A DNA stretch of 64,000 nt from Salinilacihabitans rarus (lineage in GTDB: Archaea > Halobacteriota > Halobacteria > Halobacteriales > Natrialbaceae). Of this stretch, positions 43,904-46,658 are shown piece after piece. The notes beneath the pieces are model-generated. The model was given only the letters and a program-made list of their open reading frames with translations, did no database searches and was not told the origin of the DNA. Location: NCBI RefSeq assembly GCF_024296665.1, contig NZ_CP100762.1, positions 2,108,001 through 2,172,000 of the forward strand, read 5' to 3'. Each line of letters opens with the position of its first letter. Position 1 is the first letter of the stretch. Both the position numbers and the translations under genes were made by a program.

Positions 43904-44011
43904 GGGCCCTTAGCTCAGTCCGGTTAGAGCGCTCGGCTCATATCGGACGCCGATCGGCGATCGGATCCGTGGGACACCGAGTGGTCGATGGTTCGAATCC
44001 GTCAGGGCCCA
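43904..44011 (+). tRNA. tRNA-Met (CAT, elongator) with intron
   Basis: The acceptor stem GGGCCCT pairs with AGGGCCC (44004-44010), with discriminator A at 44011. CAT is at 43939-43941. An intron of about 33 nt (approximately 43943-43975) interrupts the anticodon loop after position 37; removing it restores CTCGG/CCGAG and a seven-base loop. Intron in the elongator tRNA-Met is normal for haloarchaea; this one is short. CGTTAACTAC about 28 bases upstream is the likely promoter. The mature length is 75 nt. Confidence 0.9.
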
Positions 44012-44145: not shown

Positions 44146-44559
44146 TCATGCGTCGTCAGGACGGGGCGCGTTCTCGTACTTGACCATCTTCGCAGGTTTG
44201 TCAGAGATGGTTTCGTAGATCCGCTGGAGGGTCTCCTCGGCGGCGAGCAAGTTGTGTTCCTCGAGGAAGGCTCGGCCCTCGTCCGTAAGGCCGTAGAATT
44301 TCCAGGGATATCCCTGCCGGCGCTGATCGTCGTCCAGCGCGACTTCCTCGACGATGCCGGCGTCGATCAGCTTCTGAACGTGCTTGTAGACGGTGGCGTC
44401 ACTCACGCTGGGATTGAGCTCCTCGAGTTCGTACATCGAGGGACGTTGCTCGGGATGCTGGAGGATGTTGTTGATGAGCGCGAACCGCGTCTGTTGGGTG
44501 ACGAAGTGGACGAGCTCGCGGGTTTCCATCCCCTCGACAGTCCCCAGATCAGTGCTCAT
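44146..44559 (-). CDS. Winged-helix transcriptional regulator (PadR/ArsR-like)
   Basis: 137 residues. HTH core: ELVHFVTQQTRFALINNILQ, PSMYELEELNPSVSDATVYK, HVQKLIDAGIVEEVALDDDQ, then the wing and a helical tail (YGLTDEGRAFLEEHNLL, EETLQRIYETISDKPAK). Typical of haloarchaeal winged-helix regulators. It starts at 44559; a perfect 22-base dyad lies 29-50 bases upstream and overlaps the expected TATA position, so autoregulation is likely. It is divergent from the gene at 44689. Confidence 0.8.
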   Translation of the reverse strand: MSTDLGTVEGMETRELVHFVTQQTRFALINNILQHPEQRPSMYELEELNPSVSDATVYKHVQKLIDAGIVEEVALDDDQRRQGYPWKFYGLTDEGRAFLEEHNLLAAEETLQRIYETISDKPAKMVKYENAPRPDDA

Positions 44560-44587
44560 ACGGCACGATACACGCCCCGACGACAAG

Positions 44588-44646
44588 TAGTTTACCCTCG
44601 GGTAAACTACCCCGGAGTAAACCGTTCTATACTCGATCGGGTAAAG
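44588..44646. promoter_or_regulatory. Palindromic operator with additional half sites
   Basis: TAGTTTACCC (44588-44597) and GGGTAAACTA (44600-44609) form a perfect dyad with a two-base centre. Related half sites follow: GGAGTAAAC (44614-44622) and GGGTAAAG (44639-44646). The dyad covers the TATA position of the minus-strand regulator, and the last half site lies just upstream of the TATA-like CCATATTTCG of the plus-strand gene, whose ATG (44689) is about 27 bases further on. Confidence 0.65.
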
Positions 44647-44688
44647 TACTTCACAAACCATATTTCGCGGCTTCGAGAAAGACTGGGT

Positions 44689-45237
44689 ATGCCTGACGAG
44701 GGGTCGCCCGTCCCGGAGGAGGTCCTCACGAGCGCCAAAGAGCAACTCGATGCGGAGGACATCTCGCTTGCGGACAACGAGGAAATCCTTCACGCGCTGA
44801 GCGAGTTGACGCCGGTCTACCGGAACGACCGGTCGTACTTCGTGCTCGGGAACTACGACCGGGAACCGATCCGGCGGCTGAATCTGGTGGTGGATCGTCT
44901 CAACCGACGTACCGACGTGTACGCCTTCCGGATGGTCGACATTCGGGGCGAATGGGACAATAGCATCCAGAAGTTCTGTCTGATCGCGGATATCGTGACG
45001 TACCTCGTCGGGGTCGCCGAGAAGGAACCGAGCGACTTCCTCGTCGAACAGGGGCTCCTCGTCGGCACGACCGAGTACTTCTCGAAAAGCCACGTCCTCA
45101 AGCGAGAGTACGAGGACGAGGAGTATCCCTTCGGTTGGATGCAGGATGGTGTCTTCGAACTATTCGACCGGGAGGGACGACTGCACTGCTGGCGGACCGA
45201 GGAGGACCTCGTCGACGTAACTGGGGACCTTCCGTGA
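44689..45237 (+). CDS. Conserved haloarchaeal protein of unknown function, divergent from regulator
   Basis: 182 residues, soluble, acidic. Notable segments are NEEILHALSELTPVYRNDRS, FVLGNYDREPIRRLNLVVDR, LNRRTDVYAFRMVDIRGEWD and KFCLIADIVTYLVGVAEKEP. The alternating hydrophobic strands and helices suggest an alpha/beta fold, but no family is recognised. The leaderless ATG at 44689 is 27 bases after a TATA-like box. It shares the control region with the winged-helix regulator, so it is the obvious candidate target of that regulator. Confidence 0.6.
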   Translation: MPDEGSPVPEEVLTSAKEQLDAEDISLADNEEILHALSELTPVYRNDRSYFVLGNYDREPIRRLNLVVDRLNRRTDVYAFRMVDIRGEWDNSIQKFCLIADIVTYLVGVAEKEPSDFLVEQGLLVGTTEYFSKSHVLKREYEDEEYPFGWMQDGVFELFDREGRLHCWRTEEDLVDVTGDLP

Positions 45238-45285
45238 CGGCGAGTGGGAGACCGATCTGTCTCACGACGTCAAGTGCGACGATCC

Positions 45286-45537
45286 TCGGCGTTCTCACTG
45301 GGCGCGTTCCGGGACGAACACGGAACCGGGTTCGACCTCGTGAGCGATATGAGCCGAGATTCGATCCGGGAATACGACCTCGAGATCGACATCCCGGAAC
45401 TGGGCCTGCACGGCATTGCCAACCGCGCGGTGTTCGTCGTCGACGAGGACGGGACCGTCACCTACCGCTGGGTCGCCGACGACCCGACCAGCGAACCCGA
45501 CTACGAGGAGATACTCGACGCGGTAGAGACAGCAGGA
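45286..45537 (+). pseudogene. Truncated peroxiredoxin (AhpC/TSA family), C-terminal part only
   Basis: In one frame this encodes FSLGAFRDEHGTGFDLVSDM, REYDLEIDIPELGLHGIANR, AVFVVDEDGTVTYRWVADDP and DYEEILDAVE, the C-terminal half of a haloarchaeal Bcp/AhpC-type peroxiredoxin. The N-terminal half, with the thioredoxin-fold start and the peroxidatic cysteine, is missing. Upstream the frame turns into unrelated Arg/Ser-rich sequence, and downstream it does not stop at the normal place. It cannot make an active enzyme. Sequence after it (45546-45791) has no gene and is A/T-richer, consistent with rearrangement. Confidence 0.7.
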
Positions 45538-45791
45538 GCTGTTTTGAGGCGAAAGCAAACGCGAGTTTGCGATAGTCACGCAAAACGCTATCGTGTTCGT
45601 AATCGTAATCATCGATGGTGTTGTTATGGGTCGAACGACGTCCACGAAAAATCAGGATGCCCTGCCACAGGAACTCACCACACTCGACCGACGTCGTGTT
45701 ACGGAACCAACGGTGCTGACCAACTTGAGAGACGACGGGAGCAACGTGGTGGCCGGCCGCTGTGACGTCACCTGCCAAGGGAGGGGACGGC

Positions 45792-46658
45792 GTGACAACC
45801 GATGAGTCGAAAACGGACACCGCCTACGAGGCGGCCCTGAACGAACACTACGGAGCGACGGACCTCGGCGACGAAATTCTCGACGCCCTCGAAGCCGCCG
45901 GGAAAGACGTCGACACACTCACTCGGGAGGATATTGCGTCGTTCGACGAGTTCCACATCCGCGGTCTCGAGGCGACCCGAGAAGTCGCCAACCTCGCGGA
46001 GGTGGAAGACCACGCTCGCATCCTCGACGTCGGATGCGGGATCGGTGGGCCTGCCCGCACCCTCGCTTCCGAGTTCGGTTGCGATGTCGTCGGAATCGAT
46101 GTAGTCGAGGAGTACTGTCGGGCAGCGACCCTCTTTACTGATCGAGTAGGGTTGACCGACAACGTCCGCTTCCAGCACGGGAACGCCCTCGACCTGCCGT
46201 TCGCGGACGAGGAGTTCGATGTCGTCTGGTTCGAGCATACGCTGCTGAACATCGAGGCCAAGGGAGTGGCGATCGAGGAAGCGGGTCGTGTCCTCAGGCC
46301 GGGAGGTACACTTACACTGTACGAAATTTGTGCCGGACCTGGGGACGAACCGGTATTCCCGGTCCCCTGGGCATCGGATGGGTCTCTCAGCTACCTCGAT
46401 CCACCTGAGAAACTCCGGGAGATCGTCCTCGATCGTGGCTTCGATGAGGCCGCCTGGAGGGACGTCACAGGGCCGAGCCTCGAGTGGTTTCGGAACGTGG
46501 TGGAGTCGATGCAATCGCGACCAGCGGATGCACCGCCGCCGCTCGGACTCAACCTTCTGATGGGAGCGGAAACGCCGATCAAAGCGGCGAACGTCGTCCG
46601 GAACCTCGAAGAAGAACGGATCGTCGTCGTCCAAGGCGTGTACGAGCGTATCGGTTAG
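45792..46658 (+). CDS. Class I SAM-dependent methyltransferase
   Basis: 288 residues. Motif I ILDVGCGIGGPARTLASEFG, near residue 83, binds SAM; VVGIDVVEEYCRAA carries the acidic residue for the ribose; NALDLPFADEEFDVVWFEHT and RVLRPGGTLTLYEI are motifs II and III. The N-terminal helical cap (EAALNEHYGATDLGDEILDA) and the C-terminal region resemble small-molecule methyltransferases such as sarcosine/dimethylglycine or tocopherol-type enzymes. The substrate is not known. The GTG at 45792 was chosen because GGGAGG lies seven bases before it; an ATG at 45762 is possible. Codon bias is weaker than in flanking genes. Confidence 0.82.
   Translation: MTTDESKTDTAYEAALNEHYGATDLGDEILDALEAAGKDVDTLTREDIASFDEFHIRGLEATREVANLAEVEDHARILDVGCGIGGPARTLASEFGCDVVGIDVVEEYCRAATLFTDRVGLTDNVRFQHGNALDLPFADEEFDVVWFEHTLLNIEAKGVAIEEAGRVLRPGGTLTLYEICAGPGDEPVFPVPWASDGSLSYLDPPEKLREIVLDRGFDEAAWRDVTGPSLEWFRNVVESMQSRPADAPPPLGLNLLMGAETPIKAANVVRNLEEERIVVVQGVYERIG

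Follow-up and report, generated by a model that had tools for sequence, protein, structure and literature searches.

A widespread haloarchaeal gene pair with a fixed-register operator and a product of predicted NDT/TIR-like fold

INTRODUCTION

Members of the NDT/TIR superfamily cut nucleotides and NAD in immunity and in nucleotide salvage. In DNPH1, the catalytic glutamate is E104 and the general acid is D80 (PMC10603095). DUF4062 proteins, which show distant sequence similarity only, were reported in a 2026 preprint as TIR-like NADases (PMC13174449). On the regulatory side, autoregulated PadR/MarR-type proteins combine a small winged helix with a palindromic operator between divergent genes.

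Here, we describe a haloarchaeal gene pair that touches on all of these systems. It was analyzed in a window, by which we mean the whole 64-kb stretch of DNA studied, taken from a single 3.62-Mb contig, and it comprises a winged-helix regulator and a divergently oriented gene for a 182-residue protein. Residues 46-182 of this protein are predicted to share the fold of DNPH1/Rcl and the NDT superfamily, including a glutamate on the helix that follows strand three and the Glu-x-Gly pattern seen in VGYELGRA and LVEQGLL. Unlike DNPH1/Rcl and NDT proteins, it has no GSIRGG phosphate loop and no detectable sequence homology to them, and it has extra N-terminal helices and a regulator partner. TIR and TIR-like NADases, DUF4062 included, have the same broad predicted fold (TIR-STING, SPARTA, and SARM1 align with Z scores of about 10 to 11), and a conserved glutamate and a mobile context are also common to both; however, the 182-residue protein has no TIR Pfam match and no credible PADLOC match, and it stands alone, without a sensor or effector partner domain. 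The regulator, its palindromic operator, and its probable autorepression recall the PadR/MarR type, whereas the two dyads at a strict 15-bp spacing, the lack of a regulon, and a PadR score just below the cut-off set this system apart. We found no paper describing the pair, nor any earlier description of its fixed operator architecture, its plasmid habit, or its fold assignment.

RESULTS AND DISCUSSION

Organization of the locus

The features of the locus and its immediate context are the following.

43904-44011, plus strand: tRNA-Met(CAU) gene with a 33-nt intron (context, outside the module)
44146-44559, minus strand: winged-helix (PadR/MarR/HTH_20-like) regulator, 137 aa, assigned by profile matches and its relative 3u1d
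44584-44591, minus strand: TATA-like ACTACTTG of the regulator gene, -25 to -32 of the ATG, a putative promoter element by its position
44588-44609, no strand: perfect palindrome TAGTTTACCC-TC-GGGTAAACTA, 22 bases
44591-44606: core dyad 1, 31 bp from the regulator ATG
44606-44621, no strand: dyad 2, ACTACCCCGGAGTAAA, imperfect, 15 bp from dyad 1
44614-44621: half site GGAGTAAA, the right arm of dyad 2
44639-44645: third half site, GGGTAAA, upstream of the putative promoter of the 182-residue protein gene
44660-44665, plus strand: TATA-like ATATTT of the 182-residue protein gene, -29 to -24 of the ATG, likewise putative and judged by position
44689-45237, plus strand: 182-residue protein; an NDT/TIR-like fold is predicted for the part that starts at residue 46

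In the window, a 129-bp gap separates the two divergent genes. The initial annotation had placed in this gap a perfect 22-base palindrome and two further half sites, overlapping both promoters. The palindrome is exact and the half sites are present, but the region is better described as a pair of dyads offset by 15 bp than as a single dyad with half sites. The overlap with both promoters is plausible by position: the dyad borders directly on the TATA-like element of the regulator gene, and on the other side the third half site precedes the ATATTT of the 182-residue protein gene by about 14 bp. Haloarchaeal genes are often leaderless, and the positions of both TATA-like elements fit such transcripts.

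The operator is unusually clean, with one site pair in this genome. At up to 3 mismatches, the 18-bp palindrome core has 1 match in the window, against 0.07 expected from shuffles. In the whole 3.62-Mb genome, the perfect 18-bp core occurs at this locus alone, accompanied by 2 further matches with 3 mismatches each, and a looser dyad pattern (up to 2 mismatches) recovered dyads 1 and 2 plus 3 scattered weak sites; the reversed control of the looser pattern gave 2 genome matches. A genome scan for the dyad had been expected to reveal a regulon. Neither the strict nor the looser pattern yielded regulon sites beyond the locus in the whole-genome scan, and the idea of a regulon was therefore rejected. 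With no further perfect site in the genome, control by this operator looks local. Each of the two genes is single copy, and no second copy of either was found in the genome.

The operator in related pairs

The comparison drew on the gaps between the genes of 112 divergent pairs, with some of these loci being duplicates. In the main clade, defined by an identity of the 182-residue protein of at least 64%, TTTACYC-N2-GRGTAAA starts exactly 31 bp from the regulator start codon in essentially all loci, and this register of dyad 1 is kept in gaps as different in length as 121 and 235 bp. A weaker dyad 2 usually starts 15 bp after dyad 1: this spacing was observed 100 times between successive dyads, and any other spacing was seen at most once. 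Overall, 206 dyad matches were observed versus 14.8 in shuffled gaps. Among 77 distinct sequences, the TTTAC/GTAAA arms pair in 89-97%, their center is the best of all centers tested, and the mean information is 1.37 bits per column in the dyads versus 0.79 in the regulator-side leader. The TATA-like element of the regulator gene, beside the dyad, is among the most conserved columns. Because the register of the dyad is fixed with respect to the regulator and not to the 182-residue protein gene, the site would seem to be first of all the regulator's own.

The initial reading of the locus depended on the dyad being present before homologous pairs. This is the case for every close pair, in the fixed register, and thus for the main clade; the operators of distant pairs, however, have another sequence. 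In a second clade (about 47% identity), AAAGCGTTTCGCTCAAATACGAATC is found at the place of dyad 1, which suggests that operator and regulator changed together. Relatives at 27-35% identity keep the partner regulator and have a different operator sequence, and no common dyad was found among pairs more distant than the 47% clade. In the plasmid-type clade, the region of the third half site reads GGTAATTTACTCCATAAACCATATC. In a chromosomal Natrialbaceae clade (L050-L064), the promoter of the 182-residue protein gene contains repeated CGGAAAC-like motifs and the extra GTAAA half site is missing, which suggests a different input.

The regulator and its association with the 182-residue protein

Of 28 members of the regulator family searched against Pfam (E value of 0.01), 26 matched PF12840 and 15 matched PadR. 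The window regulator itself scores 25.7 bits against the PadR model, below the cut-off of 27. Together with these Pfam matches, a solved relative, PDB 3u1d, identifies the domain as a winged helix. This structure, which the initial annotation had missed, is an uncharacterized haloarchaeal winged-helix protein of the same regulator family; it corresponds almost letter for letter to the regulator of a distant pair (L075), which is about 29% identical to the window regulator and whose intergenic sequence differs from that of the window. In the literature, 3u1d was found only within a salt-bridge survey. The operator is clean and fixed in its spacing, it varies naturally across dozens of species, and the regulator has a relative of solved structure; the pair thus lends itself to studying how archaeal repressors and operators evolve together, and it might also serve haloarchaeal genetics as a small switch. 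In three distant pairs, the regulator (L110:2772-3887, L113:3811-4932, and L123:928-2040) is extended at its C terminus by about 230 residues, among which conserved stretches resemble ADGAGRTIRSIL.

The regulator and the 182-residue protein behave as one unit. Their protein distances correlate with r = 0.97 across 89 pairs and with r = 0.80 within the main clade, and 0 of 999 permutations reach either value. All 14 distant pairs (27-48% identity), which were fetched through the 182-residue homologue alone, have an adjoining regulator of the family, 13 of them divergent and 1 in tandem. Next to the 182-residue homologue, a regulator is present and not visibly broken in 93 of the 101 loci examined, and most of the exceptions are fragments or contig ends. 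A broken 182-residue protein gene with an intact regulator was seen in L026, L069, and L122, and the reverse in L047; the use of this loss asymmetry as a test for a toxin was dropped, because the numbers of broken copies are too small.

Predicted fold of the 182-residue protein

The 182-residue protein has no match in Pfam, NCBIfam, PHROG, or PADLOC; the one weak PADLOC match, to a methyltransferase and in just one distant member, lacks credibility. Pfam TIR matches 0 of 33 members, PF05014 matches none of the family members, and searches of solved structures by sequence, using either the protein or its profile, returned nothing credible. The family is common in the family of the window organism and yet has no Pfam or NCBIfam name. 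The initial statement that the protein belongs to no known family holds for its sequence, but its predicted fold is DNPH1/NDT/TIR-like.

Residues G54, E111, E120, and G122 are invariant across 33 diverse members, and the two glutamates, which are located within the motif VAEKEPSDFLVEQG, are kept down to about 30% identity. Distant members read DGGHEWEAGYL, similar to the NDT motif, and several of them have E-x-x-D-G-G-x-x-x-E-x-G, as in NDT motifs. The AlphaFold model of the window protein (pLDDT 80, pTM 0.74) alternates beta-alpha from residue 46, with modest pLDDT near the proposed active site (blocks of 63-65). Structure prediction had been proposed at the outset as a way to characterize this protein, and the model was compared using VIA-align with chains pre-ranked by Foldseek. 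The best match is human DNPH1 (Z 13.2, 2.9 Å, 123 residues), followed by MilB, TIR-APAZ, TIR-STING, the retron-Eco1 effector, and SARM1. When the L075 homologue (30% identical to the window protein) was used as the lead sequence, the resulting second model also has DNPH1 first (Z 12.1, 2.4 Å, 130 residues), and with both models NDT, MilB, and TIR proteins rank after DNPH1; much the same alignment underlies both models, which are therefore not fully independent. Foldseek alone gave weak matches, with a best E value of 7e-4.

A comparison with ten haloarchaeal DNPH1-like proteins by hhalign gave no signal (probability of 0.3%), which makes the link to DNPH1 one of fold only. In the model, E120 falls on the helix that follows core strand three, as E104 does in DNPH1, and by eye, from the sequence, there is no obvious acidic counterpart of DNPH1 D80. 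In view of the null profile comparison and of the missing match to D80, our claim does not extend to NDT/TIR membership: the models predict an NDT/TIR-like fold, and the protein is probably an N-glycosidase. The precedent of DUF4062 makes the N-glycosidase reading reasonable, though it is no proof. If the fold prediction holds, the family would add an archaeal branch to the NDT/TIR superfamily.

Proposed mechanism

We lean, if only slightly, toward viewing the pair as a mobile, self-contained, autorepressed two-gene module whose product has an NDT/TIR-like N-glycosidase fold. The regulator, probably a dimer, would bind the two TTTACYC-N2-GRGTAAA dyads 15 bp apart. Dyad 1 overlaps the expected BRE and lies right next to the TATA-like element of the regulator gene, so binding should block the loading of transcription factors, resulting in steric autorepression of the regulator at its own promoter; the same dyads and the extra half site would hold down the divergent gene. 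Some signal would then lift the repression, and the 182-residue protein would be made. Its C-terminal part of about 135 residues is predicted to form an NDT/TIR-like Rossmann domain, in which the invariant glutamate would belong to the motif that provides the nucleophile of DNPH1, and the protein may cleave the N-glycosidic bond of a small nucleotide, either (d)NMP or NAD+. As for the self-contained two-gene switch put forward in the initial annotation, the sequences support the divergent module and its conserved operators, whereas the switching itself is what we infer from them. It is conceivable, although we are doubtful, that the pair represents an as yet undescribed archaeal TIR/NDT-like enzyme family with a dedicated repressor on haloarchaeal plasmids, which depletes or edits NAD+ or a modified dNMP in plasmid-host or virus-host conflict, with its control being transcriptional rather than allosteric.

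Alternatively, the 182-residue protein might be a catalytically dead ligand sensor or co-regulator of NDT/TIR fold that would bind a nucleotide and modulate the regulator, so that the pair would be a switch acting on itself. The tight co-divergence of the two proteins, the absence of any other operator in the genome, the lack of an obvious acidic match to D80, and a regulator that has no ligand-binding domain apart from the winged helix are all in line with this idea; nevertheless, invariance of E111 and E120 to such low identity exceeds what a bare sensor needs, and we consider it unlikely.

Distribution and genomic context

Returning to the autorepressed module, its distribution is a further aspect that the initial annotation had missed: the pair is widespread and often located on plasmids beside replication genes. 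Homologues (E value of 0.001 or better) were found in 95 of 125 genomes of the family of the window organism, and 64 plasmid records hold homologues. Among 13 plasmids read with wide flanks, 7 have an orc1/cdc6-type gene within 8 kb of the pair, and on another the genes close by include replication factor A and an AAA ATPase. An ArdC-like gene, polymerase B, and a family-less 108-aa gene recur near the pair on plasmids; no ArdC-like gene was found elsewhere in the genome of the window organism. Carriage beside replication genes would fit a role in plasmid-host conflict, such as defense, maintenance, or control of the nucleotide pool.

Such neighbors could also mean that the pair serves plasmid maintenance or copy control together with an orc1/cdc6 origin, with the tandem dyads controlling replication and not a promoter. 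Of 71 loci, 16 have an orc1/cdc6 gene at a distance of up to about 3 kb, and in 19 the pair adjoins a 107- to 108-aa protein without a Pfam match (L106:13043-13366 and its homologues). Cdc6 domains were confirmed for two neighbor genes (one of them in L107), and neighbors of this kind are also retained in a more distant clade. On the other hand, orc1 is not a constant neighbor, as many loci, including the window, have no orc1 nearby; in a Natrialbaceae clade (64-80% identity) the pair has a set position on the chromosome, next to an aldo/keto reductase and DUF555; and the dyads are in register with the regulator start codon. A role in copy control is thus quite improbable in our estimation. 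Distant pairs sit among unrelated genes. The 107- to 108-aa neighbor often sits between the pair and orc1/cdc6, and in L121, from the 47% clade, a protein similar to it is found on both sides of the pair.

In the window, the pair lies directly downstream of the intron-bearing tRNA-Met gene, which the default tRNA scan missed. This tRNA gene is found behind a moaB-like gene in 10 of 16 relatives sharing the latter, and the pair follows the moaB-like gene in 0 of 15 relatives, for each of which about 1.5 kb downstream was read. Present after tRNA-Met here and absent there in relatives, the pair would seem to have been inserted, or to be what remains of an insertion, at a place where integration is likely, a possibility not raised in the earlier reading. 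The ends of an inserted element were not found in the window, and neither was a repeat (at least 12 bp) of the tRNA-Met 3' end; with no attachment-site repeat there, insertion by an integrase is at most a possibility for this locus. In two relatives, 22- to 23-nt copies of the 3' end of tRNA-Met occur at a point downstream of the resident tRNA gene, and tRNA-Met therefore looks like an integration hot spot. Comparison of the downstream flanks by tblastx gave noise. A viral origin was considered and rejected, as no homologue was found in phage records or viral contigs; the viral protein scan was made with one pattern.

A toxin-antitoxin-like pair, in which the regulator restrains a putative toxic glycosidase, would agree with a mobile two-gene unit and with the use of the NDT/TIR fold by the retron-Eco1 effector and TIR NADases (both among the fold matches), but its genes are divergent rather than operonic and its broken copies, which occur on both sides, are too few for an asymmetry, so that we give this explanation just as little credence as copy control.

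On its other side, the pair is adjoined in the window by a gene for a SAM-dependent methyltransferase (Methyltransf_11; 45762-46658), which is not a conserved neighbor of the pair elsewhere. Directly behind the pair, the stretch at 45244-45600 resembles, by eye, the C-terminal end of a peroxiredoxin without a start and is probably a gene remnant.
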